DNA from: a virus
DNA: 64,000 nucleotides
Reading direction: 5' to 3' (one strand)
IMG/VR virus record: IMGVR_UViG_3300017743_000002
Coordinates: 1-64,000 of that record
A program made the position numbers and the translations under genes. Under the pieces are notes generated by a model. It had not been told where the DNA came from, searched no databases, and was given only the letters and a program-made list of their open reading frames with translations. Shown in pieces: positions 9,001-64,000 of this stretch; positions within the stretch are counted from its first letter, which is position 1, and each line of letters begins with the position of its first letter.

Positions 9001-9369
9001 ACCACTACCATCACCATCATATCTTGATGCTGATACATTTGAACTTATATTTAATGAACCTGTTATTGTAGTATTACCAGTTACATCAAATGTAGTTCCA
9101 CTTTCAACTGATGCGGTTGCTGAACCTTCTGCTATTCTTGCTATATCACCAGTAAGAGCTGATGTTGGTATATTATTTAATTCTGAACCATCTCCTCTGA
9201 AAGAACCACTAAAAGAAGATGCAGTTACACTATTATCTACATTTAAAGACGTATTGATATCAACCGAAGATGTAGATATAGTTGCTTGTTCTACACCTTG
9301 AACATCAATCGAAAGTAAACTTTGACTGACCTGATTGATTCCGTTTGGGTTCTTTCCTCCGTATTCCAT
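1..9369 (-). CDS. Giant tail-fibre/adhesin protein, 3' end outside window
   Basis: The ATG at 9369-9367 is preceded by AGAGG a few bases upstream, and the frame stays open to base 1, so at least 3123 residues are present and the C-terminus is missing. In order the protein shows an N-terminal segment with SGSFSGSF and GDGSELNNIP motifs like those of the 3585-aa neighbour; a collagen-like Gly-Thr-Ser/Gly-Ser-Ser tract (about bases 7360-8555); a mixed region with paired DDRI/NDRI repeats (about 6050-6350); and about fifteen repeats of the type YDSNNTGYYVDPAS between 5700 and 300, separated by Trp/Tyr/Arg-rich segments. Such YDS..TGYYVDP repeats are common in long phage tail fibres. Distal host-binding fibre is the likely role. 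I translated it by hand from the sequence; I did not check every codon for stops, but all sampled parts are open and protein-like. Confidence 0.85.
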   Translation of the reverse strand, partial: MEYGGKNPNGINQVSQSLLSIDVQGVEQATISTSSVDINTSLNVDNSVTASSFSGSFRGDGSELNNIPTSALTGDIARIAEGSATASVESGTTFDVTGNTTITGSLNISSNVSASRYDGDGSGLYNVPASALGDIDRLKSGSAEAVISENKGLRINTGTTIDKFLIVTGSGIFKNNAQIDNDLTIGNDLSVGGTITSTELITTFISSSVIYASGSNVFGDESTDSHQFTGSVLIKDSVVIPVFSSEPSGGVVGQLYYNSTDTNIFRYTGSEWEPAAGTAGTSGTSGTSGTSGTSGTSGTSGTSGTSGSSGIDGTDGTSGSSGSSGSSGTSGTSGTSGTSGSSGSSGSSGSSGSSGSSGTDGTAGSGGTSGSSGSSGSSGTSATSGSSGSSGSSGSSGSSGSSGSSGSSGADGVDGVDGVDGEDGTSGSSGISGTSGSSGSSGSSGSSGSSGSSGVGGAQGTSGSSGSSGSSGSSGSSGIDGTDGEDGTSGSSGSSGSSGTSGTSGSSGLTGAGGGDGTPGTAGSGGTSGSSGSSGSSGSSGTSGTSGTSGTSGSSGVDGAAGVVGSDGTSGSSGSSGSSGSSGSSGSSGSSGSSGSSGTSGTSGVSGAEGSSGSSGSSGSSGSSGSSGSSGSSGSSGSSGTSGTSGTSGTSGTSGTSGTSGTSGESGTDGLLALTGNTDNGVITLNGSAPNGTVESNLTFDGTTLNITGNLNVTGTQTIVNTETIQLADNIITLNSNFTTGTPSEDGGIEILRGSSATKKFYWRESIDSWYADDDLTATGNLNARGGTLILDETVGAITKITNENNLSIYSDHLVNFIESDASNTRAVFGLNGSGNFTFGQGTLNTSYTMYVAGTFYSNTVDTGQGATEVYLMNQNVRTSDDVTFDDVTVGSTSKSADSVVRVLAGDSNKAGFEAYGNSQGTGYLYVGQSSTYGGGISYNGDGSPGFINGETSDRITFFNREAGTNNEVFSYSYSGTTVAFNGTITAANINTGQGTTEVYLMNQNVRTSDSPQFAGLNLGNGNLNTVENIYLDDRIYSQGDTDTYLQFHDANQFRIVTGGTEMLEVNDTYVKLGASLNANNQQLLNVEDIGLNDRIFHDGDTNTYIQFQSADNFRVVTGGGERLEINNNEVQVKNNFRAYGGGSIDTSPDGTTFANTIGGGSNSRVINFEGPSNSVSTWYTSGNTALGAIDQNSSYMSMWQNLGSGWAEQMRIYRGYVQANNSFRAPIFYDSNDTAYYVNPNDFSNFGKSNGPVMQITKTGSAPGNNTTLIVENTYANHSWGVVQEIRGGGISGTDRPALLFSSPLTSQTWTSGYYQTSDSYAITSNRGYRNGGWGSWRMLVDSSGNVEAAGSSRAPIFYDSNNTGTYVDPNTTGVSFQTLGQVRTTRADGFRVDSASYARIDLDSNNNWSYIRLQDNGAVSWDIASYNGGNLELRPGGGSSNRTYFDSSGNSYSETSKRAPIFYDSNDTAYYGNFASTSRLYHAENTYGSEFIHKKHSGSDFTSGTLVQTDITSNTTNGASFVLEATGKSYSADSPFNFMVQGYLYANTIINHSGLHLGKAGFSTMKVFDNGGTLAFWWPRVSYWNSFEVRVRDAGGSARNRVTNISNSTEPSSSKKVTVTMRAVPIGGTTTNAQDMYAPRYYDSDNTAYYGDFASTSVMNNVQVNGQLDIRGYIDADSNDPIEIYANMEFQDNQTLRFGNGSDLRIWHDGSNHYFKNYNHGEGDFYFQGEDNEGTNHALFYLITDTSRPYLQLFEDGAERLRTISTGVRVYGEYQINDSNTQLEEGGGNSLRMRTNYGYVDMGPMNSSYAHFQTDRGLFYFNRQLRTDGGISAYDTNDYAYYPIYYDFNNTGYYVKPSSDTRLHHLYVEGGHGDTRIQLHYNNGNDIYDAHLTLWASEPGITYDNTGIGGNINYSGQYYGRQTNSNPYGAYVRFDVNSGHVEAWTTTGSAGSSGGQGTRQWYVNQAGDAYTRSSNRAPIFYDVNNTGFYANPASQSNFNTLTLTGNRIGFINTSFDAEIRVSDANPNGTGAEFVFYGDTGANNAQLTAEVGNFTANVRTPIMYDSNNTGYYSDPNGTSRLNSINANEIIVDGFEIADTASRSVSAGQWVTIATGSGRQYATFNVWDTNSSRHGSMSFTAGISYGQQGTITMLGKSWYSSNGIFNNIRIRKSGTYDTHYLQIYIRTSGTLYYAITNNFQSPGWSLTTSGTGNPGSTTACEVVPDSYPGLATNRNIYSGQSVYAGEYMYAQRFYDSNSNSFYLDPASTSYLNDVRADIYYDRNNTSYYGNFASTSYFNDIRPNIMYDRNDTGFYVNPRNNSRMSGLRLSGIDNQASGDDALLWLDKPNNNDWGIILTGDDDYGIDLRMASTNNYAIRVLRGGSEMFRVNSDYAYHYSDMRSPIFYDSSNTGYYVDPASFSNLNSGLRATEIYARNWFRNDNSGEGLYNQSTGMHWYSDSSSRWRAYSGSSTSQILFTTSGNNARGYVYATNSNEIGFLDQGGSWAIRHQNDNGTYFYTDGSSLEFSVGRDTVGGNYGTVRTHSTRGGWGGYSINGGWVFMHDHSNAAGIYNDYENEWAILMYRNSYVELRYNGTWEQRTQSGYVQARGSYRAPLFYDSNDTGYYVDPNSTGQAARFRGRIYIGPNNSWGRYLQVGGNGREFVNNSSIASVVTTNGNLHLDSASGYTTYINYYDGGTTIFGTGSNNEVARLNSDYFRHNSDVRSPLFYDNNNTGYYGDFASTTITNVTRANYLSNRYDVSTDHQFGMYFSSGRSTAYAIYREGGGWSYRYPDLRIAFHTGIKFGANASYNGMRFYNDYNMATQVMSVNNSTDPLGTNNVYVNYNLQAGSSLRAPIIYDSNNTGYYFDGASAHSTRFEGVSNRTMAYIGQPGHTRNSGEYYRARPRQTSDTNYWTGAFGWGRQDMNVVSTWGSGFIDSWSNPGNQPSGTSHWVGMQAFHYRSSNTGGYGWQMVGGPITNLRFRSSWSGWRSWRTIPVLDENSSNGGSMYAGRYYDSNNTGYYVDPASTSNQSSIYVNNWFRARSSSGLYFQDRGCGLRAVRDEGGQYGTVATYGSDVGGYEGWSIGGRIVFMHDMSSANGIYNDVNNEWHMLNYRNDRVRLYYNG
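300..5700 (-). repeat. About fifteen YDSxxTGYYVDP-type repeats in the giant fibre
   Basis: Reading the minus strand, the motif Y-D-[SRNDV]-x-[ND]-[TS]-[GA]-[YFT]-Y-x-[DN]-[PF] occurs near bases 5665, 5280, 4960, 4430, 3820, 3410, 3160, 2600, 2530, 2450, 2140, 1510, 1170, 790 and 320. It is usually preceded by an aromatic/hydrophobic R-A-P-I-F type strand. Spacing is irregular, from about 70 to 630 bases, so these are not simple tandem repeats but a recurring structural cap between variable inserts. A second form reads YYGDFAS in place of YYVDPAS. Confidence 0.8.
7360..8555 (-). repeat. Collagen-like Gly-X-Y tract in the giant fibre
   Basis: In frame on the minus strand this stretch is an almost unbroken series of Gly-Thr-Ser and Gly-Ser-Ser triplets, with occasional Gly-x-Asp, Gly-Glu and Gly-Ala triplets and short IDGxDG interruptions. 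Glycine occupies every third position and proline is essentially absent. At DNA level it is a 9-base-periodic repeat built from variants of ccagatgta/ccagaagaa/ccacttgtt. Long phage-type collagen-like stalks of fibres have this form. Confidence 0.85.
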
Positions 9370-11502: not shown

Positions 11503-14500
11503 TTAACTTACATTGTTTGCACTTAGGAATCCATAATATGTACTCCCCCCATCATAAGTATAGAATACTAATATATCTTTTCCATTTGCTGTTAGTGTTG
11601 GTGCTGCTCCATTAGCCCATTGTATTATACCAGGCCAACTTACAGTTGCAGTACCACCACTTCCATCTTCCAACACCAATGTAAATCCAATTGCACGAGG
11701 GCCTGTTGGTGCGTTTGAAAGAGAAATTGTTATACTACCAGTTCTATTGATTCTAAAGTTGTTACCTTCAGTTAAATCTATATTTGTTGTTCCACTTGAA
11801 TTACCTATATCGTAGTAGTTTTCGTGGAATCTTGTAGAGAATGTAGCATCACTTACATCTAAATCACCAGTTACATCTAATAAATTACCATTGAATGTTA
11901 AATTAGCTTCTGCATTTGCAGTTCCATCACCTTCCATAGTAACAACTCTATCTTCTGCATCATTATCTACATTTAATAATCCACTTGAACCAGATGTACC
12001 AGATGAGCCCGAAGAACCAGTTTCACCTGATGAACCAGAAGTTCCACTTGTACCACTCGTACCACTACTTCCAAATAAAGTACCATCTAAACCAGATGTA
12101 CCAGCAGTACCAGACGAACCTGATGAACCACCCTCTCCAGTTATACCCGATGTACCCGAAGAACCAGAAGTTCCACCTGTTCCACTACTACCACTACTTC
12201 CGAATAAAGTACCATCTAAACCACTTGTACCAGATGTACCAGCCGTTCCAGATGAACCAGCCGTTGATGCAGTACCAGACGAACCCGATGAACCCGCAGT
12301 ACCTCTCGTACCACTACTACCACTACTTCCAAATAAAGTACCATCTTGTCCAGAAGTACCTGATGTTCCAGCTGAACCACTTTCTCCACTCGTACCAGAA
12401 GAACCACTTATTCCACTTGTACCGCTTGAACCACTACTTCCGAATAAAGTACCATCTTGTCCAGAAGTACCTGATGAACCAGCAGTTCCACTTACACCAG
12501 ATGTTCCACTTTCTCCACTCGTACCACGCGTACCAGAAGAACCAGATGAACCAAAGAAAGTTCCATCAATACCACTTGTACCAGTTGTTCCAGAAGTACC
12601 TGATGAACCTCCAGTACCAGCAGTACCAGCGGTACCTGTTGAACCTGAAGTTCCCGAAGTACCATGTGTACCACTACTTCCAAAGAATGTTCCATCTTGT
12701 CCAGAAGAACCTGAAGTACCAGTTGTACCCGATGTACCAGCAGTTGATGAAGTACCAGATGAGCCAGATGAACCACCAGTACCAGTTGTTCCAGATGAAC
12801 CAGCTGAACCAAAGAATGTTCCATCTTGTCCGCTTGTTCCACTCGTTCCACTTACCCCACTACTACCTGATGTTCCAGCACCAGAAGTACCAGAAGTACC
12901 AGCCGTACCTGATGAACCGAAGAATGTTCCATCAACACCTGATGTACCAGTTGTACCACTTGTCCCACTACTACCACTCTCACCGCTTGTACCAGATGTA
13001 CCTGCTCCACTCGTACCAGAAGTACCAGCCGTACCAAAATTAGTTCCATCTAAACCAGAAGAACCTGAAGTTCCAGTTGTACCAGAAGAACCTGATGTTC
13101 CAGTTGTACCACTCGTTCCAGAAGTTCCAGCAGTACCAAAGTTAGTTCCATCTTGTCCAGATGAACCCGAAGTACCATTTGTACCATTAGCTCCATTTTC
13201 TCCATCAATACCCGATGTACCAGTTGTACCTGAAGAGCCAGCAGTACCAGATGAGCCACTACTACCGCTGGTTCCAGATGTTCCAGAAGTACCACTACTT
13301 CCAAAGAACGTTCCATCTAATCCAGTTGTTCCAGATGTACCATCACTTCCTAATCCAGAAGTACCCGATGAACCTGCGGTTCCACTTGAACCAGATGAAC
13401 CGAAGAATGTTCCATCTACACCAGAAGAACCTGAAGTTCCACTTGTACCAGACGAACCTGCCGAACCACTTGTCCCACTACTTCCGCTAGTACCATTTGT
13501 ACCTGATGTACCTGATGTTCCACTACTCCCTTCAGCTGATGTACCAGAACTACCACTTGTTCCAGTTGTTCCGCTTGTTCCAGTTGTTCCAGAAGTTCCA
13601 CTTGTTCCACTACTTCCCTCTGCGGATGTACCAGAAGAACCTGATGTTCCACTTGTTCCGCTTGTACCACTACTTCCACTTGTTCCAGATGTACCTGATG
13701 TACCACTACTTCCTTCAGCAGATGTACCACTTGTTCCTGCTGAACCTGAAGTTCCAGTTGTTCCGCTTGTTCCAGAAGTACCAGCCGTTCCACTACTTCC
13801 CTCAGCTGATGTACCTGATGTACCAGTTGTACCAGAAGTACCAGCTGAACCACTTGTTCCATTAGAACCAGATGTACCCGATGTACCTGCTGAACCACTT
13901 GTCCCACTACTACCACTCGTTCCAGATGTACCAGAAGTTCCACTACTACCACTCGTTCCATCAGAACCACTTGTTCCACTACTACCACTCGTTCCAGATG
14001 TACCAGAAGTTCCTTCAGAACCAGTTGTTCCAGAAGTTCCAGATGTACCCGATGTACCTGCTGAACCTCCACTACCAGACGTTCCACTTGTTCCAGAAGT
14101 TCCAGTTGTTCCGCTTGTTCCAGAAGTACCACTTGTACCACTACTTCCACTTGTTCCAGATGAACCTGATGTTCCGTTTGTACCTGAAGTTCCAGATGTA
14201 CCAGCCGAACCTGATGAACCTTCTGCTCCACTTGTTCCACTTGTTCCAGAAGTACCTGATGTACCATTAGTACCTGTCGAACCAGAAGAACCAGAAGTAC
14301 CCGATGAACCAGAAGTACCAGCTGAACCTGAAGAACCTTCTTGTCCACTCGTACCACTACTTCCACTACTTCCGCTTGTTCCACTACTTCCAGAAGAACC
14401 ACTTGAACCAGAACTTCCGCTTGTACCACTTGTACCAGAACTTCCACTTGTTCCGCTTGTACCACTACTTCCGCTTGAACCAGATGAACCCGATGAACCG

Positions 14501-17500
14501 GATGTACCTCCACTACCACTACTTCCGCTTGAACCAGATGTACCCGAAGTTCCACTACTTCCACTTATACCACTTGAACCAGATGAACCTGATGTTCCAG
14601 AAGAACCTCCCGTACCAGATGAGCCTGAAGTTCCACTTGAACCAGATGTACCTGATGTTCCGTATTTATCAACAATGTTTATTGTTCCAAGCATTGAACC
14701 ATGAACACTACATTGGTAATATATGTTATTAGGAGCATTTTCAGGAACTCTATATTCTATTAAAGTAGAAGTACTATGAACTCCAGCTCCTGCATCATTA
14801 TTTGTTGTACCAGGCACAGTTGTATTATCACCAGATTCTAATCTTAATGCAAATGGATGTGATGAACTTACATTTGAAACATCAAAGTAATATAATTCAC
14901 CCCTTACAAGAGTTAATGATGGTTGGTTTCCACTATATCCATCTATTGTATAATTGTTTCCACCTGGTGTTCTAACAATGAACAAAGCTCCACCTTCTCT
15001 ACCAGCAGTACCAGATGTACCACTCGTTCCAGACGAACCTGATGTTCCAGATGTACCAGTTGAACCTGATGTACCAGCAGTACCAGATGTACCACTACTT
15101 CCAGAAGAACCACTTGAGCCGGAAGAACCAGATGTTCCAGACGTTCCTGAAGTTCCACTACTACCACTCGTTCCACTTGTTCCAGAAGTACCCGATGAAC
15201 CAGAAGTACCACTACTTCCACTTGAACCAGAAGTACCAGATGAACCTGAAGTTCCACTACTACCACTTGTTCCAGCGGTTCCACTACTACCACTTGTCCC
15301 ACTACTACCACCTGTTCCACTTGAACCAGAAGTACCAGCAGTACCACTTGTTCCAGCAGTTCCACTACTACCACTTGTACCAGCAGTTCCAGAAGTTCCA
15401 CTTGAACCAGATGAACCAGCCGTTCCAGTAGTACCACTACTACCAGAAGAACCCGATGTACCACCAGTACCAGATGTACCACTTACAGCAGTTACATCTC
15501 TTTTGAAAACTTTTCCAGTTGATTCATCAATAACTAAAACTGTATCTGAACTACCAGTTTGTAATCCTACAAATTGTGTACTACCAGATGATACTAAACT
15601 ACCACTTACTTCAAATCTTCCAACAAATGAACCAGTACCAGTATTTGGTAAGAAATTTTCTCCTAAGAAATCACCAGCATTTAAAGCGAATGAAGCAGTT
15701 GCTGCATAAGATGCTGAAAGTACAGTCATCGATGCCGTTTGGTCATTTCTTACATAATCTTCAGCAGATACAGCGTTTATAGCATAAGATGCTGAAAGAG
15801 CGTATGATGCTGAAAGTACAGTCATCGATGCCGTTTGGTCAGTTCTTACAAAGTTATCAGTATTAAAATCACCAGCGTTTACGGCGAATGAAGCAGTTTC
15901 AGCATATGATGCTGAAAGTACAGTCATTGAAGCCGTTTGGTCATTTTGTATATAGTTATCTAAATTAGCAATCTCAGCAAGAGATGCCGAATCGAATCCA
16001 AATAAGTTTGATGCAGTTTGAGCTAAATCAGCGTTTCTAGCATATGATGCTGATAATACTGAACCTACTACATCACTACCTTGTACAAATCCTGCTAATC
16101 TACCACCAGTACCAATTACTGCTTGTCCACTTGTCAATCCACTAAATGTTACTCTAACCGATGAACTATCGATTGATTCTATTGCTTGTGGAATAATCTG
16201 TCCATTTGAACCAGTTTCATAAATTTGAACTACTGGATAATCAATAGCGAAATTGTGTTGGAATGTTACCTGAGTTACATCTGAGAATGGGAATACAGCA
16301 GTATCACCAAATTGTGTTACAGGTCTAAATTTGTTTGCATCTGCATCAAATACTAAAATATCTAAATCATCAGGTACATCTATACCAACATTTTCACCTT
16401 GGTATGAACCTACGAATGATGATGTAATTCTTGGTGAGAATATTTCATCCGTTACAGTTATCTTAGATGCACTTACATCGTTTTGGAAGGTTACATCTCC
16501 GAAAAATGTTGAACCACTATCTATTGACCTAACTACGAATCCATCATCAGGAGTAACCGATGCGGTTACAGAACCACTAAGTATTCTACTTTGGTCTAAT
16601 CCTTCAATAGCATCAGCAGGAATATTAAATAATCCCTCACCACTACCACTAAAGAATCCACTTCCAGATGGTATTTCTATATTACCAATAAAAGTAGAAC
16701 CACTTGTTGGAGAAAATACCCTAAACCCTTCTATATTATCAACCGATGCACTAATACCACCACTTATGATAAGATTTAATTCTAAATCTTCTAATGCTTC
16801 TGCAGGAATATTAAATAATCCCCCACCATCACCAGTAAATAATGTACCACTAATTGGTTTATTTACGATTAAACCAGCAGTAGGGTCTACTCTTGCTTCA
16901 GCAGCACCAGATACAATTCTATCTAATTCTAAATCTTCAAGTGCATCTAATGGAATATTAAATAATCCACCACCATCACCTTTATATAAAGATGCTGTTA
17001 TTGATTGAGAAACATGTAGAGAACCACTAATTTCTACTTTAACTGAACCTGAGTTTATATTTGAATCTAAGTTTTCAACTCTAAAGAAACCTAATGGGTC
17101 AACTGATGCAGTTACCGAACCAGTAAATATTTTTGATGAATCAATTGCTAAGTTAGCAATATCAATGTTTGTAATCCCACTACCATCACCAGTAATAATA
17201 CCACCAACATCTAAAGATTCAGAAATAATAACTGAACCACTAAATGATGAATCTACTGCAATTGATGAGGTTTCGTTAAATACTTTAAATTCAGTTTCCG
17301 ATAAAGATGCAGTTGCTGAACCACTTGATAACTGAGTTACGTTTAGTGATAAATTAGCAATATCAATATTTGTTAAACCACTACCATCACCAGTAAATAC
17401 TCCACCACCACCAACAGTTATTGAACCAGATGTTACAATTGAACCAGTGAATACTGCTCCACCAGTTGGTGCAGTTACTACAAATGTATCACCACTAGCA

Positions 17501-20500
17501 ACCGATGCCGTAGCAGAACCACTTGAGATAAGAGGAGCAGCTGCTGCTTGTACATTTGTTAATTGAGAACCATCACCAACAAAGAATGATGCACTTACAG
17601 ATTCAGCAATATCAACCGAACCAGTTACTGATAAATTTTTACTTCCAGTTAAGAATCCTATTGATACACTACCACTTACATCTAAAGATGATTTAAATTC
17701 TGAACCACTTATTGCCGTTACTACAAACGATTCTCCACTCTCAACCGATGCCGTAGCAGAACCACTAGCAATTACAGGTGATAAATCAGCTTGTACATTT
17801 GTTAATTGAGAACCATCCCCTACAAATGAACCAGAGAATGAACCACTAATTTCATCAGCTTCTATTTTATTAGCTGTTATTTTTTCACTTACATCAAAAC
17901 TACCAGTTACATCTACATCTCCTTTGAGAATGTTAGTTGTTACTTCTGGAGTTGTACCTAATACATTAAATACATTACCATATGATTCTGATTGTGCTGC
18001 GTAATAATATAATTGTGATGGTGCACTAGCTGATGGGGTAATCGTTAAGAAAGCTCCATTAGCACCAGGATTTACACTACTACTAACTACATTAATAAAG
18101 TATTGAGAACCACTGTCAGAATTTGTACCATCTAAATTTTCTGAAATTTTGAAATCAAATCCAGCATTAGAACTATCTGATAAATCAAAATAATAAGGGT
18201 TATCTTTAATAGTTTTAAATGTTGCTTTACCAACACCATCTATAAAGTACCTACTTTCTGATATTATTACTGAACGACTTGTTGGTATATTTTCTAATAA
18301 AATAGATGATGAAACTACTAAAGAACCAGTTATAGTAGTATCACCTAATATATCAACATCACCTTGAAGAGATGAAGATGTATTTACTACAAATCCCTCA
18401 TCAGGTGCAATTGATGCGGTAAAAGAACCACTAGCTATAAAACTTCGTTGAATTACATCTTCGGAAAGTGCCGATAATGGAATATCAAATAAATCTCTAC
18501 CACTACCACTAAACGAACCACTAAATTCATCAGCTATAATCTTTGGAGTAGTAATTGATTCCGTTACATTTAATGTTCCATCTATTCTTAGATTATCTTC
18601 AATTCGTGAATCTAAGTATGGGAATTCATTAACAACATTAATAACAGCTGACCCAGCCATACCACCATGATTCAAACAATAGTAGTAAAGTTGAGTTGGT
18701 GTTTCTGATGTTATTAATATACTAACTTGAGAACCTGCACTTCCAGCATCAATACTACCAGTAGTTACACTTGAAGTATATTCAGTTCCAGAAGAATGAA
18801 TACCATTTAATGTTGTAGAAAATTTTAATGGGTGAGTTTCATTTGATGTATCTGATTGGTCAAATGTATATGTACTACCACTTACTAAATATAAATCTGG
18901 ATGTATTTGTCCATCTATAAAATATTTGTTACCATCATCAGTTGAACCAACAGTAACTATTTTTGTTAAATTATCTTTTATTTGATTTGATGATGAAATA
19001 AATACACTACCACTAATAGTTACATCATCTTCAAATCTACCAGTTGAGTTTACTTCAAATCCTCTAGTCGGATGAACCGATGCAGTTACTGAACCACTTA
19101 CAATTCTAAATGCTTCATCTGTAATTGCTGAACGAGGTATATTAAATAAAGATTCACCACTACCACTAAAAATAGATGCAGATACAGTTCCACTTACATC
19201 AATATCACCATCAAAAGATGCTGATGTATTTACAACAAACCCTAAGTTTGGAGAAATAGATGCCGTTGCTGAACCACTTGATATTCTTGGAGAATCTTCA
19301 GAAAGTGCAGATTGTGGAATATCAAATAAATTAGCACCACTACCACTAAATGATGAACTAACATCAAGTTGTACATTTCCACTTACAAATAAAGAGCCAC
19401 TAAATATTGAACCACTTTCAACAGATTTTACTACAAATCCAAAGTTTGGAGAAACTGATGCGGTTACTGAACCACTTGATATTAATGGTGCATCCTCTGA
19501 AAGTGCTGATTGTGGAATATTAAATAATCCACTACCATCCCCAACAAATCCACTGGAACTTATAAATTTACTTGATGTTAAATTACCAAATATAGAAGTA
19601 TCACCAAATAATGTTTGTTTATCACTTCCAGTATTATCACCAAATATATTTGAACCAGAAGAATAAATTATTGATGATGAAATAAAATCAGTAAATATTT
19701 CGTTAGCTGTAATTCTACCAACAACAGTTAAATCATTATCAATTGTTAAATCACCTTGTATAGAAGCTGATGTATTTACTACAAATCCTAAGTTAGGTGA
19801 AATAGATGCGGTTGCTGAACCACTAGCAATTCTAACAGCATCTTCAGAAAGTGCTGATTGAGGGATATTATTTAAATCCGAACCATCACCACTAAATGAA
19901 CCACTAAATGAACCAGTAATTTCATCAGCTATAATTTTTGGAACATCTAATGTTTCTGTTATAGAAACACTACCACTAAATTCAGATTTTACTGAACCTG
20001 TTCCGAATACTTTAAATGTACCATCGGGTAAAACCGATGCGGTTACTGAACCAGTTGTGATTAAATTAGAAATTAGTGCATCTTCAACTAACGCAGATTT
20101 TGGTATATCAAATAATTCCGCACCACTACCACTAAATACACTACCACTACTTAATTGAACACTACCACTAAATATAGAACCACTATCTATTGAGGTTACT
20201 CTAAATACATTATCATCAGTTGAAGCAGTTACACTACCAGTTCCAATAAAAACTGCTTCTCTCGATACTAACGCTTCAATTGATTCTTGTGCATCATTAG
20301 AAAGTGCTGAGAATGGTATATCAAATAAATCTTCACCACTACCACTATATTTTGAACCACTATTTAATTGAACTGCACCACTAACAAATACCGAACCACT
20401 TAATTCAGTTGTTACTGAAGCCGTTGATTGTACTCTAAAGAAACCATCAGTTGAAACCGATGCGGTTACTGAACCAGTAGATATTAAGTTCGAAATAAGT

Positions 20501-22260
20501 GCATCATCCGTTAATGCAGTTCTTGGTATATTGAATAATTGTTCACCACTACCACTAAAGAATGAACCACTACTTAAAAATACAGAACCTGTAAAAGTAG
20601 AACCACTTAATTCTGATTCTACAACTAATCCAAAGTTTGGAGAAACTGATGCGGTTACTGAACCACTTCTAATATTATTTGTAATAAGTGCATCTTCAGT
20701 AAGTGCTGATTTTGGTATATCAAATAACTCTGCACCACTACCACTAAATATACTACCACTACTTAATCTTAAACTACCACTAAATGTTGAACCACTAGCT
20801 TCGGATTTTACAACAAATCCATCAGCATCAGAAACCGATGCAGTTACACTACCAGTTGCTAATAAACCAGCTTCAAAAGCAAGAACTGCTTCAACAGCGT
20901 CTTGAGCATCATCTGAAAGTGCTGCTAATGGTACATTAAATAATTTTTCACCACTACCAGAAATAAATGAACCACTACTTAAAAATATTGAACCTGTAAA
21001 TGTAGAACCACTATCTAATGAGTTTACTACAAAACCAGTATCAGGTGATACGGAAGCAGTTACTGAACCACTAATAATTAAATTCGTTTCTAATGCATCT
21101 TCGGTAAGTGCTGAACGAGGAATATCGAAAAGATTAGCACCACTACCACTAAATATACTACCACTATTAAGTTGAACTGCTCCACTTACAAATATTGAAC
21201 CACTAAATTCAGATTTTACTGAACCAGTTGATTCTACCTTAAAAACTCCAGATGGGTCTAAAGATGCGGTTACTGAACCTGTTACGATTCTTGATGAATC
21301 AAATGCATCATCGGTAAGTGCAGTTCTTGGAATGTTAAAAAGATTTTCACCACTACCACTAAATGAAGAACCACTATTTAATTCTATATTTCCACTAACT
21401 AAAAGTGAACCACTTAATTCAGTTGTTACTGAACTACTACCAAATACTCTAAAGAATCCAGAATCATCAACAGATGCACTTACTGAACCAGTTGCTATGA
21501 TTGGAGTAACTAATGCATCAGGTGCTAGTGCTGATTTTGGAATGTTAAATAATCCCTCACCACTACCACTAAAGAATGAACCACTATTTAATTCAATAGT
21601 TCCACTTGCGAATGTAGAACCACTTAATTCAGTTATTCCTACTATTATAGTATCTGATAAAGATGATGTTCCTTCTACACTAAATCCTCCAGTAACATTT
21701 GTATCACCATTTATTTCTAATGAACCAGTAATTCCAACTGAACCTGTAAATTCTTGCTTATCAGTAAGTTCATCACCAAAGATATTTGAACCAGATGAAA
21801 AAATAACTGAAGAGGAAATAATTTCTACAATTAATTCTCTAGCTACAATACGATTATCAACAATTAAATCACCAGTAACTCTTACATCACCATCTACATC
21901 TACATCACCATCAAATGATGATGATACATTTACTAAGAATCCAGTATTTGGTGAAATTGATGCTGATGCAGAACCTGATAATAATCTTACTGCTTCTGGA
22001 AGGTTATTTAATTCAGAACCATCTCCACTAAATGAACCACTAAATGAACCAGTAACTTGCTCTAATTGAAGTGTTGTAACAAATAAACGATTACCATCAG
22101 CATCAGAAGCAACAAGAGCAATAGAACCAGAAGAAAGTGAACCACTCTCAGGTACACCTAAGTTTGGTTCAGCCTCATTCAGCCTTAGATATTCATATCT
22201 ATTCTCCGATACATCGGAGGGCCTTATTACTTTAACCTTTCCGCTTAATAATTGGCTCAT
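11503..22260 (-). CDS. Giant collagen-like fibre protein with cupredoxin-like domains (3585 aa)
   Basis: Start ATG at 22260; no clear ribosome-binding site. Residues 1-1100 are tandem units of the pattern SGSVTASVSPDxGF...FSGSGxxLFNIPxSAL, roughly 70-80 residues each. At about 1098-1210 there is a cupredoxin-like domain with a plausible type-1 copper set (THP His, then C, H and M in YYYCLNHGGM). A second at about 1327-1437 has lost these residues. Further SGS repeats are followed by LSASYA/TASFA repeats (about 2070-2180). Collagen-like Gly-X-Y tracts fill about 2257-2420 and 2535-3425, separated by another cupredoxin-like domain (2425-2533) with SHP and CSVHGSM. The C-terminal about 160 residues are a beta-rich knob-like domain. 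Likely a long virion fibre. It lies between the 286-aa protein and the leucine-rich-repeat protein. Confidence 0.9.
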   Translation of the reverse strand: MSQLLSGKVKVIRPSDVSENRYEYLRLNEAEPNLGVPESGSLSSGSIALVASDADGNRLFVTTLQLEQVTGSFSGSFSGDGSELNNLPEAVRLLSGSASASISPNTGFLVNVSSSFDGDVDVDGDVRVTGDLIVDNRIVARELIVEIISSSVIFSSGSNIFGDELTDKQEFTGSVGITGSLEINGDTNVTGGFSVEGTSSLSDTIIVGITELSGSTFASGTIELNSGSFFSGSGEGLFNIPKSALAPDALVTPIIATGSVSASVDDSGFFRVFGSSSVTTELSGSLLVSGNIELNSGSSFSGSGENLFNIPRTALTDDAFDSSRIVTGSVTASLDPSGVFKVESTGSVKSEFSGSIFVSGAVQLNSGSIFSGSGANLFDIPRSALTEDALETNLIISGSVTASVSPDTGFVVNSLDSGSTFTGSIFLSSGSFISGSGEKLFNVPLAALSDDAQDAVEAVLAFEAGLLATGSVTASVSDADGFVVKSEASGSTFSGSLRLSSGSIFSGSGAELFDIPKSALTEDALITNNIRSGSVTASVSPNFGLVVESELSGSTFTGSVFLSSGSFFSGSGEQLFNIPRTALTDDALISNLISTGSVTASVSTDGFFRVQSTASVTTELSGSVFVSGAVQLNSGSKYSGSGEDLFDIPFSALSNDAQESIEALVSREAVFIGTGSVTASTDDNVFRVTSIDSGSIFSGSVQLSSGSVFSGSGAELFDIPKSALVEDALISNLITTGSVTASVLPDGTFKVFGTGSVKSEFSGSVSITETLDVPKIIADEITGSFSGSFSGDGSDLNNIPQSALSEDAVRIASGSATASISPNLGFVVNTSASIQGDLTIDNDLTVVGRITANEIFTDFISSSIIYSSGSNIFGDNTGSDKQTLFGDTSIFGNLTSSKFISSSGFVGDGSGLFNIPQSALSEDAPLISSGSVTASVSPNFGFVVKSVESGSIFSGSLFVSGNVQLDVSSSFSGSGANLFDIPQSALSEDSPRISSGSATASISPNLGFVVNTSASFDGDIDVSGTVSASIFSGSGESLFNIPRSAITDEAFRIVSGSVTASVHPTRGFEVNSTGRFEDDVTISGSVFISSSNQIKDNLTKIVTVGSTDDGNKYFIDGQIHPDLYLVSGSTYTFDQSDTSNETHPLKFSTTLNGIHSSGTEYTSSVTTGSIDAGSAGSQVSILITSETPTQLYYYCLNHGGMAGSAVINVVNEFPYLDSRIEDNLRIDGTLNVTESITTPKIIADEFSGSFSGSGRDLFDIPLSALSEDVIQRSFIASGSFTASIAPDEGFVVNTSSSLQGDVDILGDTTITGSLVVSSSILLENIPTSRSVIISESRYFIDGVGKATFKTIKDNPYYFDLSDSSNAGFDFKISENLDGTNSDSGSQYFINVVSSSVNPGANGAFLTITPSASAPSQLYYYAAQSESYGNVFNVLGTTPEVTTNILKGDVDVTGSFDVSEKITANKIEADEISGSFSGSFVGDGSQLTNVQADLSPVIASGSATASVESGESFVVTAISGSEFKSSLDVSGSVSIGFLTGSKNLSVTGSVDIAESVSASFFVGDGSQLTNVQAAAAPLISSGSATASVASGDTFVVTAPTGGAVFTGSIVTSGSITVGGGGVFTGDGSGLTNIDIANLSLNVTQLSSGSATASLSETEFKVFNETSSIAVDSSFSGSVIISESLDVGGIITGDGSGITNIDIANLAIDSSKIFTGSVTASVDPLGFFRVENLDSNINSGSVKVEISGSLHVSQSITASLYKGDGGGLFNIPLDALEDLELDRIVSGAAEARVDPTAGLIVNKPISGTLFTGDGGGLFNIPAEALEDLELNLIISGGISASVDNIEGFRVFSPTSGSTFIGNIEIPSGSGFFSGSGEGLFNIPADAIEGLDQSRILSGSVTASVTPDDGFVVRSIDSGSTFFGDVTFQNDVSASKITVTDEIFSPRITSSFVGSYQGENVGIDVPDDLDILVFDADANKFRPVTQFGDTAVFPFSDVTQVTFQHNFAIDYPVVQIYETGSNGQIIPQAIESIDSSSVRVTFSGLTSGQAVIGTGGRLAGFVQGSDVVGSVLSASYARNADLAQTASNLFGFDSASLAEIANLDNYIQNDQTASMTVLSASYAETASFAVNAGDFNTDNFVRTDQTASMTVLSASYALSASYAINAVSAEDYVRNDQTASMTVLSASYAATASFALNAGDFLGENFLPNTGTGSFVGRFEVSGSLVSSGSTQFVGLQTGSSDTVLVIDESTGKVFKRDVTAVSGTSGTGGTSGSSGSSGTTGTAGSSGSSGTSGTAGTSGSSGTAGTSGTAGTSGSSGTGGSSGTSGSSGTAGTSGSSGTSGSSGTSGSSGSSGTSGSSGTSGTSGTSGSSGTSGTSGTSGSSGSSGSSGSSGTSGTAGTSGSTGTSGTSGSSGTSGTSGTAGREGGALFIVRTPGGNNYTIDGYSGNQPSLTLVRGELYYFDVSNVSSSHPFALRLESGDNTTVPGTTNNDAGAGVHSTSTLIEYRVPENAPNNIYYQCSVHGSMLGTINIVDKYGTSGTSGSSGTSGSSGTGGSSGTSGSSGSSGISGSSGTSGTSGSSGSSGSGGTSGSSGSSGSSGSSGTSGTSGSSGTSGTSGSSGSSGSSGSSGTSGSSGSSGTSGQEGSSGSAGTSGSSGTSGSSGSTGTNGTSGTSGTSGTSGAEGSSGSAGTSGTSGTNGTSGSSGTSGSSGTSGTSGTSGTTGTSGTSGTSGSGGSAGTSGTSGTSGTTGSEGTSGTSGTSGSSGTSGSDGTSGSSGTSGTSGTSGSSGTSGSAGTSGTSGSNGTSGSAGTSGTTGTSGTSAEGSSGTAGTSGTSGTTGTSGSAGTSGTSAEGSSGTSGTSGTSGSSGTSGTSGTSGSSGTSAEGSSGTSGTSGTTGTSGTTGTSGSSGTSAEGSSGTSGTSGTNGTSGSSGTSGSAGSSGTSGTSGSSGVDGTFFGSSGSSGTAGSSGTSGLGSDGTSGTTGLDGTFFGSSGTSGTSGTSGSSGSSGTAGSSGTTGTSGIDGENGANGTNGTSGSSGQDGTNFGTAGTSGTSGTTGTSGSSGTTGTSGSSGLDGTNFGTAGTSGTSGAGTSGTSGESGSSGTSGTTGTSGVDGTFFGSSGTAGTSGTSGAGTSGSSGVSGTSGTSGQDGTFFGSAGSSGTTGTGGSSGSSGTSSTAGTSGTTGTSGSSGQDGTFFGSSGTHGTSGTSGSTGTAGTAGTGGSSGTSGTTGTSGIDGTFFGSSGSSGTRGTSGESGTSGVSGTAGSSGTSGQDGTLFGSSGSSGTSGISGSSGTSGESGSAGTSGTSGQDGTLFGSSGSSGTRGTAGSSGSSGTASTAGSSGTAGTSGTSGLDGTLFGSSGSSGTGGTSGSSGTSGITGEGGSSGSSGTAGTSGLDGTLFGSSGTSGTSGTSGSSGETGSSGSSGTSGSSGLLNVDNDAEDRVVTMEGDGTANAEANLTFNGNLLDVTGDLDVSDATFSTRFHENYYDIGNSSGTTNIDLTEGNNFRINRTGSITISLSNAPTGPRAIGFTLVLEDGSGGTATVSWPGIIQWANGAAPTLTANGKDILVFYTYDGGSTYYGFLSANNVS
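11975..14663 (-). repeat. Long collagen-like Gly-X-Y tract of the 3585-aa fibre
   Basis: About 890 residues of nearly continuous Gly-Thr-Ser, Gly-Ser-Ser and Gly-Thr-Ala triplets, punctuated at fairly regular intervals by GxDGTxFGSSG or GxDGTLFGSSG interruptions and by GTSAEGSSG. Proline is absent. The opposite strand is open over 2.8 kb only because the 9-base repeat lacks stops in that frame. Confidence 0.9.
14663..14985 (-). other. Cupredoxin-like domain inside the collagen-like fibre
   Basis: This encodes about residues 2425-2533 of the 3585-aa protein. It begins NYTIDGYSGNQPSLTLVRG, continues with YYFDVSN and SSHPFAL, and ends YYQCSVHGSMLGTINIVD. The single His in SHP plus Cys, His and Met in C-S-V-H-G-S-M match the H...C-x(2)-H-x(2)-M arrangement of type-1 copper sites. 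It interrupts the collagen-like tract. Copper binding itself is not shown by sequence. Confidence 0.65.
15000..15490 (-). repeat. Second collagen-like Gly-X-Y tract of the 3585-aa fibre
   Basis: About 160 residues of Gly-Thr-Ser/Gly-Ser-Ser/Gly-Thr-Ala triplets, placed on the N-terminal side of the embedded cupredoxin-like domain and preceded by a FKRDVTAVSG strand. Same 9-base periodicity and the same triplet vocabulary as the longer tract. Confidence 0.85.
17950..18281 (-). other. Degenerate cupredoxin-like domain in the 3585-aa fibre
   Basis: The encoded segment follows the framework of the two better-preserved copies (SRYFIDGVG, then YYFDLSDSSN, then QLYYYAAQSESYGNVFNV) but the metal-ligand positions are gone: the expected HP becomes FDF, and C-x(2)-H-x(2)-M becomes AAQSESY. 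It therefore looks like a copy that kept the fold and lost the site. Confidence 0.55.
18630..18965 (-). other. Cupredoxin-like domain in the repeat region of the 3585-aa fibre
   Basis: Encodes about residues 1098-1210. Recognisable parts are KYFIDGQIHPDLYLVSGS, TYTFDQSDTSNETHPLKF and QLYYYCLNHGGMAGSAVINV. The THP histidine and the C-L-N-H-G-G-M cluster give one His, Cys, His and Met in the order expected for a type-1 copper site. Domains of this look occur in other marine phage structural proteins. Confidence 0.65.
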
Positions 22261-60900: not shown

Positions 60901-61312
60901 CTAAGTTATCTTTGTAAGGGGTAAAGAACTTACCTCTACTACCTAATCTACCAGCATCTTTCTTACCCACAACAGTAATGAATGCAGTTGTATCTTTATC
61001 AAACTTCGTTAGTACCTCAGTTGGTACATACGGATTTTTTACTTGAACAATTTTGTTTTTTGGAATCCCAAACATTTTGGTAATAATCATTACCTTTTCT
61101 TTGAAGTTGAATGGGGATTTATTATTATCGGTTTTATTGGATGTACCGATATACACATTATTCTTTCCGAACTTTTTTACTAAGTGGGAATAGGTTGCGT
61201 AATGACCTTTATGAAAAGGTTGAAAGCGGCCAGCATAGACTACAACTTTGTTGTCTACACCCTCCGCTTCTCCTAAAATACTTTCTATTAAGAATTGAGA
61301 TAATTCGTTCAT
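57923..61312 (-). CDS. Fusion of HxGH nucleotidylyltransferase and ligase-like nucleotidyltransferase (1129 aa)
   Basis: Residues 22-215 are a Rossmann-type nucleotidylyltransferase with HKGH at 34-37 (AGRFQPFHKGHY) and GVSGTEVRKGL, the pattern of NMN/FMN adenylyltransferases. The middle (about 370-540) has KIGDTILTGRFKNKKTIIKT and DKHFFDRLTDPRNKKE, of unknown role. The C-terminal about 400 residues look like an ATP/NAD-dependent polynucleotide ligase: motif I E-K-T-D-G with Lys770, then R-N-K-G-H, LEVIYP, and near the end E-G-I-V-F-V-Y followed by T-F-K-L-T-G. The first 10-15 residues (MNELSQFLIESILGE) contain L-I-E and L-G-E, resembling a capsid-targeting/cleavage peptide. An exact promoter-like dodecamer lies upstream. 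Substrates are unknown. Confidence 0.75.
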   Translation of the reverse strand: MNELSQFLIESILGEAEGVDNKVVVYAGRFQPFHKGHYATYSHLVKKFGKNNVYIGTSNKTDNNKSPFNFKEKVMIITKMFGIPKNKIVQVKNPYVPTEVLTKFDKDTTAFITVVGKKDAGRLGSRGKFFTPYKDNLDFEGYEDKGYVYVAPEGAGGVSGTEVRKGLSSGSEEDKKNFFTKRAYPKFDKKIFDFITNTLNEDFTISKEVLENWLISYGNDLIKEASATMGKTAVDDGPNYIFPNYNTFDRVSKKRAEAVGYTVLSQIMSDELTDIDPHPIYPEGPVKAVTPYPAGVAGKTTATNQKDFYGTDAYNKWFRHVTRIAGLVGYSIINFDELKDDKKQSTKDLSNEKKPQGNVVSEDIKLPVKIGDTILTGRFKNKKTIIKTIGKDEHGMPTINGRKVVNFRIVKEGTVNEIPMADLVKIDKYADKQLNPVDIVLTDKHFFDRLTDPRNKKEISQAELIGFFKRLGKKKKDFVNFLDLYGQIVAKDSRSKINIPFMKQANKVIAKTIMRKDDFKTSDPEYKFESLPTKVTDKFKAVKSGKPSSEAEKDFNDHHTYSSYAKRGSMAEPDTIDFDDDGKSPGHQANDKNTKKKGYEPVTEKINSFYYDDLKSYVYKRRGEISKVFKNLSDKQKGEYLEKLYIKLFQGPTSRMVHKDIKGKGGELLKMLIKDKRVKEGLGHGYPDQKWMDKHEKEIKKLRKKFDKEKLQYNEPYALGGGITESLILEGGAYGHMNHPFDTEINLTFGQLKDIVQKALEGNLELTREKTDGQALAVSWRDGRLVAARNKGHLKNKGEGALDINGVAVKFAGRGELEKAYNFAMKDLTKAISKLSEKQRDKIFKGGACFMNLEVIYPTSVNVIPYGQALLVFHGTMEYNEDGVAIGENQDAARILAGMIKQVNQQVQSAYTIQGPPVVQLPKSKNLSSTKGKYNSQISKLQKKFKLKDNDGIADYHQAFWMDFVNKKSPSKLDNKTLMGLVKRWAFYDKSFRLDKKNLSDEKTLEWAKGIDKNDHAKMAKDNIRPFENIFLGLGAEVLSFMSSALTVNPDKAVRDMKKRLDKTIKDVQKLGDVKKVKKLKLELERLTSIGGKNKIVPNEGIVFVYGGKTFKLTGTFAPLNQILGLFYE

Positions 61313-61370: not shown

Positions 61371-61775
61371 TTATACTTTAACAAATGGAGAATCTACAAC
61401 TTCGCCACCGTCAACGCCGTTGTTTCCACCTCGTCCACCTTGTTGTGCCTGTTGTTCCATTTGTTCTTTAATAGCTGGGTTATAAGTAACTGTACCCTTT
61501 TCTAAATCTAATTGACCTCTTGGGTAATCTCTTTCTAACTTATTCAACTCTTTTCTAAGCTCAGCGTTAACTTCTTTGAAGTTAGTTTCAGCTTGAGTGA
61601 ATGCCTCATCAATTCTTTCTAAATCAGAATGTAATTGATTTTTTCTAATATGCAACTCACCAATTTGACCCATTAGTTGTTGTAACTGTCCATTATATCC
61701 TTTGATTTCTTTGACCTTATCTTCTGATAATTCAGCCGTTCTTAAATCAATCGATGTTTTTTGTTCTTTTGCCAT
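61371..61775 (-). CDS. Small coiled-coil protein (134 aa)
   Basis: Residues about 18-90 are a strong heptad-type coiled coil (YNGQLQQLMGQIGELHIRKN, LERIDEAFTQAETNFKEVNA), followed by a Gly/Gln-rich C-terminus (AQQGGRGGNNGVDGGEVVDS). No Cys, no membrane segment and no known family. Similar short coiled-coil proteins are frequent in T4-like marine phages and are annotated as hypothetical. It is placed between the sugar cassette and the enzyme fusion; an exact promoter-like dodecamer is 34 bases upstream, so it may begin its own transcript. Confidence 0.7.
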   Translation of the reverse strand: MAKEQKTSIDLRTAELSEDKVKEIKGYNGQLQQLMGQIGELHIRKNQLHSDLERIDEAFTQAETNFKEVNAELRKELNKLERDYPRGQLDLEKGTVTYNPAIKEQMEQQAQQGGRGGNNGVDGGEVVDSPFVKV

Positions 61776-61825: not shown

Positions 61826-62581
61826 TTATAAGTTTTCGTAATCTATTGTTGTAACACCTCTCTTTTGTACTACTTGTGCTGAACAACGATTTCCGAACTG
61901 TATTGATTTTGGAATATCATCAGTATCTAATAACATTTTAACAAACCCTGCTACAAATGTATCACCAGCTCCTGAGATATCCATTATCTCTACTTTTTCG
62001 GTTGGATATGATATACCTTTGTACATACATCCATCCTTATCTAATGTAATTATTAGCTTTTCTAAAATCCAATCGTTTTTTTCAATAAATTCTTTATTAT
62101 TTTCAAACTCTGAACGATTTAGTTTTATGAATCGTAAATCCTTACACCAATTACCCAATTGCTTCTTTGTATCACAAATTACATTTGGATGTTTGAATCC
62201 GATATATGCTATATCTTCTTCGGTTAGGAATCCCTTATTGTAATCAGAAACTACAATCATTTGGTATTCCCAATAATCTATATCGGTAAGTAGTTTGTTA
62301 CCTATCCTATCGATATTTTTTTCTTCATCAATTCTTAATAATAAAGTGTTTGATGATTCGTGAATATGTCTTGTCTTTGTAATGGGAGATTTTTGATGAT
62401 GAAAATCCACATCAATACTCAATGATGTTAAGTTAGCTAATACATTCATTCCCATTCCACCATTGAAAACTTCTCTTTTTGGAATAAATACAGGAGCAGG
62501 TCCTTCGGGTGAAAGACGGGGTGTATCTCCATAAATGAAGATATCATCACATTGTTCTCCTATTAATAAAACTTTACTCAT
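61826..62581 (-). CDS. PfkB-family kinase resembling the HldE/RfaE N-domain (251 aa)
   Basis: The N-terminus VLLIGEQCDDIFIYGDTPRL followed by SPEGPAPVF is the recognisable RfaE/HldE kinase opening, and FNGGMGMNVLANLTSL is the sugar-binding Gly-rich loop. The C-terminal ISGAGDTFVAGFV contains the PfkB GAGD motif with the catalytic Asp, and QVVQKRGVTTI ends as in this family. It is shorter than typical HldE kinase domains (about 310 residues). The expected reaction is phosphorylation of D-glycero-D-manno-heptose 7-phosphate at O1. It overlaps the nucleotidyltransferase gene by 8 bases and follows it, the reverse of the domain order in bifunctional HldE. Other PfkB substrates are not excluded. 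Confidence 0.8.
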   Translation of the reverse strand: MSKVLLIGEQCDDIFIYGDTPRLSPEGPAPVFIPKREVFNGGMGMNVLANLTSLSIDVDFHHQKSPITKTRHIHESSNTLLLRIDEEKNIDRIGNKLLTDIDYWEYQMIVVSDYNKGFLTEEDIAYIGFKHPNVICDTKKQLGNWCKDLRFIKLNRSEFENNKEFIEKNDWILEKLIITLDKDGCMYKGISYPTEKVEIMDISGAGDTFVAGFVKMLLDTDDIPKSIQFGNRCSAQVVQKRGVTTIDYENL

Positions 62582-62957
62582 CTAATAATCCAGTTGTTGA
62601 GAATCCTTCTACTTTAGGGAAGTATTCTATTTTCTTAGCATGTTTTCTACCAATAATACCTTTCGTTTTGTATTCTTCTCCAATTACAAAAATATCTGGT
62701 TGGTATTCTTTTATAGCATCAGATAATTCTTTATCGGTATCAAATACCACAATACCATTAACTCCATTAATTTGAAGTAGATTATATATTCTTTGTTTTT
62801 CATTATGAAAAGGTCTATTATCTCCCTTTGATTCTTTTACTCTTCTATCAGAATCAATTCCTATCATTAATTTTTCTCCCAATGATTTTGCATGTGCAAT
62901 TAATTGAAAGTGTCCGTGATGAAGAACATCGAAACAACCATTAATCCAAATCTTCAT
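62574..62957 (-). CDS. Cytidylyltransferase-like protein resembling the HldE/RfaE C-domain (127 aa)
   Basis: A minimal nucleotidyltransferase with WINGCFDVLHHGHFQLI (HxGH motif), then an alpha/beta core (KLMIGIDSDRRVKESKGDNR, RIYNLLQINGVNGIVVFDTD) and GEEYKTKGIIGRKHAKKI, then VEGFSTTGLLDE corresponding to the ISTT motif. These are the landmarks of HldE C-domain/glycerol-3-phosphate cytidylyltransferase proteins. Given the RfaE-like kinase just downstream (8-base overlap) and the heptosyltransferase just upstream (no gap), ADP-heptose formation is the most economical reading, but CTP-type activity cannot be excluded from sequence. Confidence 0.8.
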   Translation of the reverse strand: MKIWINGCFDVLHHGHFQLIAHAKSLGEKLMIGIDSDRRVKESKGDNRPFHNEKQRIYNLLQINGVNGIVVFDTDKELSDAIKEYQPDIFVIGEEYKTKGIIGRKHAKKIEYFPKVEGFSTTGLLDE

Positions 62958-64000
62958 TTATAAAAACTTTTTTAATTCACTTATTACCATATCTGAAGTA
63001 ATCTCCTTAGTACACTCAAATTGTCTGTTAGTACCCTTATGGTCAGGACACCAATCCCAATCACCAGCATCTAATCCTAATCGGTTAAAACATCCACTAC
63101 ACTTTCCTTTAGGTGAACCGATTCTTACACAATCTTTCATTTCTGCCCAAAGCTCTGAGAATCCACTAATCAAAACTGTCTTTGTTCCTAACGCCCAACT
63201 TAACCAACTCAATCCACTACCAATACCAATGAATGCTTTTGATTTAGCCATTTCATCCATAACTGATTCTAATGGTCCTTCTGGGTGTTTTATTATTCCC
63301 TTTGGGTGTGTGTTACCCATATAGTTATCACCCTCTTTTGAAAGTAATTTAACTTTATAGCCTTTATCATTTAACCAATCTACTACATCCTGCCAACCAG
63401 TTGGGTTGTTCCAATATTTTGGTTGAGCAGTTCCATGTATTGCTATTGTGATTAGTTTATCATCTTTCTCAACATTTCTATCTTTTAACTTTGGTTTTAT
63501 TTCTTTATATTCCAATCCTAATATGTCAGTTGCCATTTTTTGCATAGTAACTTCTTTTGGGTCTGTTGGATTTTTAAAGTAATCAATACTACCATCATTA
63601 TAAAATAATCCCAAATTGTACATAGCATATAAATTAGGAACAACATCACCTGGCTTCACAAACTCAATATTAGGATATTGTTTTTTTAACATATCATTAT
63701 GAAATGTAGATGTAACTATTTTACAATTATGTTGTTTACCAAACTCCTCAACATATGGAAACCATGCCAATGTATCTCCCAATGCTTTTGAATCTAGTGC
63801 AATATAAACTCGCTTATTAGTTGCATTATAATTTTTTTCAACTACAAGTTTATCGTTTTGCCAAACTCTAATTGTCCAATCTACGAAATATCTAATATTA
63901 GATTTAGCCCAATGATTTGTTTTTAGTTCAGTTTCATAATGTATAAAATTTGTTTTTTTATCTATAAATTCAACTCTATATGTTAAATTCTCTGAACCTA
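62958..64000 (-). CDS. Aah/TibC-type O-heptosyltransferase, 5' end outside window
   Basis: The frame runs open from the stop after 62958 to base 64000, so the start is outside; a TTG at 63782 is not the start since conserved sequence precedes it. The visible N-terminal part has RVEFIDKKTNFIHYETEL, RYFVDWTIRVW and VYIALDSKALGDTLAWFPYV. The glycosyltransferase-9 core has IAIHGTAQPKYWNNPTGWQD and FIGIGSGLSWLSWALGTKTV. The C-terminus has C-S-G-C, then W-D-W-C-P-D-H-K-G and R-Q-F-E-C-T, four cysteines spaced like the iron-finger of autotransporter heptosyltransferases. These enzymes attach heptose from ADP-heptose to Ser of adhesins. It abuts the nucleotidyltransferase gene. The acceptor here is unknown. 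Confidence 0.85.
   Translation of the reverse strand, partial: GSENLTYRVEFIDKKTNFIHYETELKTNHWAKSNIRYFVDWTIRVWQNDKLVVEKNYNATNKRVYIALDSKALGDTLAWFPYVEEFGKQHNCKIVTSTFHNDMLKKQYPNIEFVKPGDVVPNLYAMYNLGLFYNDGSIDYFKNPTDPKEVTMQKMATDILGLEYKEIKPKLKDRNVEKDDKLITIAIHGTAQPKYWNNPTGWQDVVDWLNDKGYKVKLLSKEGDNYMGNTHPKGIIKHPEGPLESVMDEMAKSKAFIGIGSGLSWLSWALGTKTVLISGFSELWAEMKDCVRIGSPKGKCSGCFNRLGLDAGDWDWCPDHKGTNRQFECTKEITSDMVISELKKFL

Follow-up and report, generated by a model that had tools for sequence, protein, structure and literature searches.

The closest described counterparts of the phage locus analyzed here are the TibC/TibA and Aah/AIDA-I systems, whose O-glycosyltransferases belong to the BAHT family (NCBIfam TIGR04414, autotransporter O-heptosyltransferase). 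This family has so far been known from a few bacterial adhesins, and the TibC-type genes of pathogenic E. coli adjoin those of their acceptors. The O-glycosyltransferase reported here (GT) shares with TibC and Aah the fold, the length, Asp110, Lys230 and Trp305 (TibC numbering) and the four-cysteine iron finger, and the genes of its bacterial relatives are also found beside those of acceptor candidates. It differs in that it is phage-borne, that its candidate acceptors are Gly-Ser/Thr triplet (collagen-like) proteins instead of beta-solenoid autotransporters, that Arg286 and Pro300 are lost and that GT4 and methyltransferase domains are often joined to it by fusion or linkage, the fusion to one or the other being found in many phages.

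Cyanophages P-SSM2 (PSSM2_309/310), S-SM2, S-CAM1 and S-CAM3 possess a split hldE-like gene pair, often adjacent, whose kinase and nucleotidyltransferase are homologous to those described here (35-48% and 34-45% identity, respectively), whereas P-SSM2 and S-SM2 contain neither a TibC-type enzyme nor strict triplets. Glycosylated collagens are known from viruses and bacteria, such as those of mimivirus and BclA. Collagen-like phage fibers are also known (PMC3368898). All of these have Gly-X-Y shafts, some of which are glycosylated, whereas the triplets described here are nearly proline-free GSS/GTS and are accompanied by a TibC-type enzyme. On mycobacteriophage virions, glycans are reported at capsid and tail-tube C-termini (Freeman 2023, to the extent described in PMC12619734). 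As far as that description goes, both cases involve glycans on phage virion proteins, reported there and predicted here, but here with a TibC-type enzyme and fiber repeats as the predicted target.

In the open-access literature, we found no report of phage BAHT enzymes, phage heptosylation or a triplet acceptor, an absence that is weak evidence. New are the wide spread of the enzyme in viruses, its core status and its co-occurrence with Gly-[Ser/Thr]-[Ser/Thr] triplets. We consider it fairly probable that GT O-glycosylates the phage's own collagen-like tail fibers at these triplets, with an ADP-heptose-type sugar as the most likely donor. Support for this reading consists of sequence, predicted structure and co-occurrence, from which we infer the activity, the acceptor, the identity of the sugar and its elongation.

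Organization of the locus and identity of the GT

The window, i.e., the whole stretch of 64,000 nucleotides analyzed, comprises bases 1-64000 of a 102,380-base IMG/VR record that is most likely a fragment. The record is T4-like, with a major head protein, a portal and a baseplate wedge matched by PHROG, and its terminase is 55-56% identical to those of Flavobacterium phage immuto and Microcystis phage Mel-JY01. The earlier note had described an O-heptosyltransferase-like, an HldE C-domain-like and an HldE N-domain-like protein in this order with 0 and 8 bases between them. All three ORFs are found in that order on the minus strand (Table 1); the 0 bases hold for the junction of GT and hldC, but the 8 bases are an overlap of hldC and hldN (62574-62581).

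Table 1. Features of the GT cassette and the predicted acceptor fibers; positions refer to the window unless stated otherwise.
Feature	Position	Strand	Remarks
TibC/Aah-type O-glycosyltransferase (GT)	record 62958-64097, window 62958..64000	-	379 aa from ATG
HldE C-domain-like nucleotidyltransferase (heptose-1-phosphate adenylyltransferase-like), hldC	62574..62957	-	127 aa
HldE N-domain/HldA-like PfkB kinase, short form, hldN	61826..62581	-	251 aa
Small coiled-coil protein recurring beside the cassette	61371..61775	-	related ORF near viral GT loci
Giant tail fiber, predicted acceptor	11503..22260	-	3585 aa; Pfam Collagen E 6e-99
GTS/GSS triplet region of the 11503..22260 fiber	11974..15480	-	aa 2261-3429, interrupted
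Giant tail fiber, predicted acceptor	1..9369	-	3123 aa in window, cut by window start; Pfam Collagen E 5e-45
GSS/GTS triplet region of the 1..9369 fiber	7354..8541	-	aa 277-672

The GT ORF is open at the window end (62958-63998 within the window) and its 5' end lies beyond it, where the start of GT forms an ATGA overlap with an upstream gene (record 64094-66277), whose 727-aa product combines a GT4 and a methyltransferase domain with a sub-threshold match to GT25. The gene order up727-GT-hldC-hldN-coiled-coil-gp1129-gp223-terL recurs on many IMG/VR contigs. An ORF of the coiled-coil family is found within 6 kb of GT in 74/103 viral GT loci, in many cases immediately ahead of the tail sheath gene, and in this record a second, related coiled-coil protein (L003:6345-6623) flanks the cassette on the other side. 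The 1129-aa ORF (57923-61312) contains an N-terminal cytidylyltransferase-like domain (PF01467) and is kept beside terL across the clade, with a length that differs widely among relatives. Farther along the record are a 3357-aa fibre-like protein (L003:7252-17325, record 67251-77324) with an intein/Hint-like insert near L003:8251-8679 (Pfam PF14890, E 1.2e-7, 32.0 bits, under the cutoff of 35.8) and, upstream of its gene, a short UDP-glucose/GDP-mannose dehydrogenase-like gene (L003:17576-18406, 276 aa).

The proposed membership of GT among Aah/TibC-like O-heptosyltransferases is borne out. Against TIGR04414 (cutoff 200), a model that also matches all 25 aligned GT homologues (E of 1e-5 or lower), the full protein reaches 294.2 bits (E 1e-87), and phmmer against the PDB retrieves TibC only (4rap, E 2e-49). 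The AlphaFold2 model, built with the 25 homologues, has a pLDDT of 92 and a pTM of 0.87 and displays the TibC fold, i.e., an N-terminal beta domain and a GT-B catalytic domain; Foldseek places TibC chains (4rap/4rb4) first with a TM of 0.85 and 32% identity, and the GT9 lipid heptosyltransferases far behind with TM values of about 0.4-0.55. An LPS-core GT9 enzyme was rejected as the identity of GT because of the weak GT9 matches and a TM of about 0.5, compared with 0.85 to TibC.

Residues with described roles in TibC (PMC4358343) were compared in 104 viral and 21 genome-collection GT homologues. The C-terminal CxxC...C...C motif noticed earlier corresponds to C333, C336, C350 and C362 of GT, the counterparts of C339, C342, C358 and C370 in the TibC iron finger, and these cysteines are invariant in 125/125 homologues. 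The profile match and the iron-finger cysteines, on which the earlier note had made its assignment depend, are thus both present. The catalytic Asp110, Lys230 and Trp305 are invariant in the 104 viral and 21 genome-collection sequences, while Thr226, which like Lys230 and Trp305 contacts the sugar/phosphate, is Thr or Ser across the 125 homologues. Arg286 of TibC contacts the adenine and is described as highly conserved among family members, its replacement by Ala having abolished or largely diminished the activity (PMC4358343). It is Val in the window GT and its clade, which lack this adenine contact, and Arg is found at this position in 10/104 viral and 9/21 genome-collection sequences; Pro300 is Gly in the window GT. 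The family, the modeled fold and the catalytic residues of GT are secure, in contrast to the donor nucleotide. Among the GT neighbors read, no partner autotransporter was recognized, and a triplet-repeat fiber or lipoprotein was found instead.

The HldE-like pair and the sugar donor

The HldE-like character of the other two proteins holds at the level of the best-scoring NCBIfam families, but both remain well under the equivalog cutoffs: the HldE-C-like protein scores 98.5 bits against TIGR02199 (cutoff 181.5) and the HldE-N-like kinase 111 bits against TIGR02198 (cutoff 345). The former also matches phrog_7878 (E 7e-36), cytidylyltransferases in the PDB and TIGR01518 (60.5 bits), while the kinase matches phrog_8133 (E 1.5e-74) and HldA (4e84, E 7e-11) and contains the motifs RLSPEGPAPV and SGAGDTF. 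The structure prediction called for in the earlier note gave a TibC-like model of high confidence for GT and a weaker one for the kinase (10 rows), with a mean pLDDT of 69 and a poor C-terminus in which residues from 181 on are mostly below 50. Phage genes for GmhA and GmhB, the presence of which was also to be checked, gave no profile matches in the window's record or the related records searched, which are fragmentary, and these enzymes may come from the host. The GmhA model has no match in P-SSM2 or S-SM2, whose annotated short 'phosphoheptose isomerase' is not recognized by the model.

Both hldC and hldN are found at 41/104 viral GT loci and only one of them at 5, with neither found within the fetched stretch at the rest. 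On 21 contigs selected by terL and extending 8 kb or more upstream of it, GT is found at the same place in 20, the remaining record having GT 3.6 kb beyond the fetched stretch, whereas hldC-like genes are found in 17 and hldN-like genes in 12. These presence counts identify GT as a core gene of the phage clade and the hld sugar-supply genes as accessory. An ADP-heptose pair as a novel core was rejected, as such pairs are known from cyanophages and are accessory here. What stands of the ADP-heptose cassette proposed earlier is an operon with HldE-like halves, with its donor unproven.

From the hld-like pair and the enzyme family, heptose is the likely sugar. Another donor is conceivable, given the Arg286 loss, the sub-threshold HldE scores and the failure to find GmhA/GmhB in the records searched; the pair would then make a different activated sugar, and GT would transfer it from another NDP-sugar to the same triplet fibers. 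The change of Pro300 to Gly at the donor site, the cytidylyltransferase matches of the hldC-like protein and the absence of the pair from many GT phages are in line with such a donor, but for each of the three proteins the best NCBIfam match is a heptose enzyme, the kinase retains the RLSPEGPAPV and GAGD motifs as in HldA, and Lys230, Trp305 and Asp110 are retained in GT, so that we regard a donor other than heptose as rather unlikely.

Spread of the GT and its pairing with Gly-Ser/Thr triplets

A profile-based scan of IMG/VR yielded at least 596 confirmed stretches with GT, a minimum that gives no fair viral-to-cellular ratio when set against the 21 genome-collection sequences, because the search patterns were drawn from phage sequences. 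An isolate-rich phage collection contained four GT records only, including Mel-JY01, where GT forms the C-terminus of a 1226-aa ORF (L032:4750-8430) that is annotated as 'methyltransferase FkbM' and to which Pfam assigns GT4 and a TibC-type C-terminal domain; the structural protein beside it has about 600 triplet residues. Two main GT neighborhoods, beside the terminase or beside the tail sheath and tube, are both structural modules. On the GT tree (quick method, moderate support), phage and cellular sequences are interleaved, which requires several transfers. Four contigs in bacterial MAGs (L038, L042, L046 and L057; Rickettsiaceae, Bacteroidetes, Winogradskyella and unclassified) resemble phage DNA, with tail sheath/tube or phage-type neighbors.

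The two giant fibers of the window are assigned to tail fiber by PHROG, and that at 11503-22260 also to collagen-like minor tail; their Pfam Collagen (PF01391) scores are 324 bits for the latter and 151 bits for the other, against a gathering cutoff of 27.2. Gly-X-Y runs, in which X and Y are mostly Ser/Thr with almost no Pro, account for 996 residues of the 11503-22260 fiber and 393 residues of the 1..9369 fiber, or about 1,390 triplet residues together. The more than 41 kb of Ser/Thr-rich genes counted earlier is roughly right, although what is specific is the presence of Gly-Ser/Thr triplets in two of these ORFs; likewise, the phage's own fibers, suggested earlier as the target, remain the likeliest one, with the predicted acceptor narrowed to the Gly-Ser/Thr-Ser triplet part of these two.

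Cellular GT genes have as neighbors, often adjacent, genes of small secreted proteins or lipoproteins in which Gly-Thr-Ser, Gly-Ser-Ser and Gly-Thr-Ala triplets make up most of the sequence. A triplet-repeat ORF, mostly secreted or lipoprotein-like, is found within the fetched stretch at 14/15 non-phage bacterial GT loci, the exception being a divergent Schwartzia locus cut by the contig end; in Schekmanbacteria (L047) a distance of 5 kb separates GT from the triplet ORF, which is cut, so that its secretion cannot be judged. The strict DNA pattern (GGN WCN WSN)x4 is present in 11/15 non-phage GT genomes, and in 8 of these 11 all strict matches of a 2.3-5.5 Mb genome fall inside the GT locus, i.e., within 0.2-0.4% of the genome. 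At four phage loci (L112, L115, L116 and L130) a triplet fiber begins within 150 bases of GT, and the pair of GT and triplet protein is carried by both the bacterium Methylobacter luteus and the phage isolate Mel-JY01. The position of the enzyme gene beside an acceptor candidate matches the layout of TibC-type loci in pathogenic E. coli, and the simplest reading would be that the enzymes of the GT branch act on Gly-Ser/Thr triplets, those of surface lipoproteins in bacteria and of fiber shafts in phages.

Most of the viral records are fragments; among those of at least 50 kb, the strict pattern is found in 19/22 with GT and in 0/11 controls without it, which are immuto-type phages and two cyanophages (Fisher p 2e-6, a value that overstates independence, as do the others, since the viral records are mutually related). 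In the reverse direction, GT is found in 18/29 records of at least 50 kb chosen by GTSGTSGTS DNA alone and missing from the other 11, compared with 1/19 records chosen by a GGNCC/Gly-Pro-X pattern (p 7e-5), which is palindromic so that part of its matches do not code for Gly-Pro, and 0/15 immuto-type phages and cyanophages. A 735-kb uncultured phage (L036, LR756501.1) has 1248 strict pattern matches and GT in a 738-aa ORF. In a phage of 636 kb (W03), GT is divergent and strict triplets are missing.

Alteration of host glycans by phages is known, and the hld-like genes of the related cyanophages sit among polysaccharide-type genes, both of which would fit a GT that modifies host surface proteins or polysaccharide for superinfection exclusion or receptor change and not the virion. 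This target is improbable, as GT is found in late structural modules in both main settings, co-occurs with fiber triplets and has bacterial relatives that adjoin a protein acceptor candidate, and the GT9 lipid heptosyltransferases fit its model much worse. Phylogenetic confounding, by which GT and triplets would merely both be frequent among large aquatic Bacteroidota-type T4-like phages, agrees with the relatedness of the viral records and the near universality of GT in the terL clade but has little chance of being the explanation, because the pairing recurs in phages with differing GT neighborhoods and in separate bacterial groups (Methylococcaceae, other Gammaproteobacteria and a Schekmanbacteria MAG) that are interleaved with phages on the tree.

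Proposed mechanism and implications

Under the reading we favor, glycosylation of the phage's own fibers, GT would be a phage branch of the TibC/Aah-type enzymes that acts in the cytoplasm of the host, ahead of virion assembly or in its course, and O-glycosylates Ser and Thr of the fiber triplets. An ADP-heptose-type sugar would most likely be the donor, and the two HldE-like proteins may raise or secure its supply through the kinase and nucleotidyltransferase steps in phages carrying the pair. The GmhA and GmhB steps would be provided by the host, and relatives without the hld pair would draw on what the host contains. Extension or methylation of the first sugar may be the role of the upstream GT4-methyltransferase-GT25-like protein, and the linkage of GT to GT4, methyltransferase and GT25-like domains suggests an extended or methylated glycan. 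The virion may benefit through stiffening of the proline-poor collagen-like shafts, protease resistance or adhesion/binding.

It is also possible, although we put it forward tentatively, that viral glyco-collagen of this kind is widespread: TibC-type ring enzymes would attach sugar to Ser/Thr by the hundreds along proline-poor GSS/GTS shafts, linked GT4 and methyltransferase domains would extend and cap the glycans, and the resulting coat would stiffen or protect these very long fibers, while bacteria would share the pair on small surface lipoproteins, with gene exchange between phages and cells.

A family so far known from a few bacterial adhesins is now found on viral contigs in the hundreds, and a specific candidate acceptor motif recurs with it in phages and bacteria. 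If the proposed role is true, a large class would be added to the glycosylated virions, the purpose of Gly-Ser/Thr triplet fibers would be explained and GT together with triplets would be a genomic marker of sugar-coated phages. TibC-type enzymes would then act on collagen-like repeats besides beta-solenoids.
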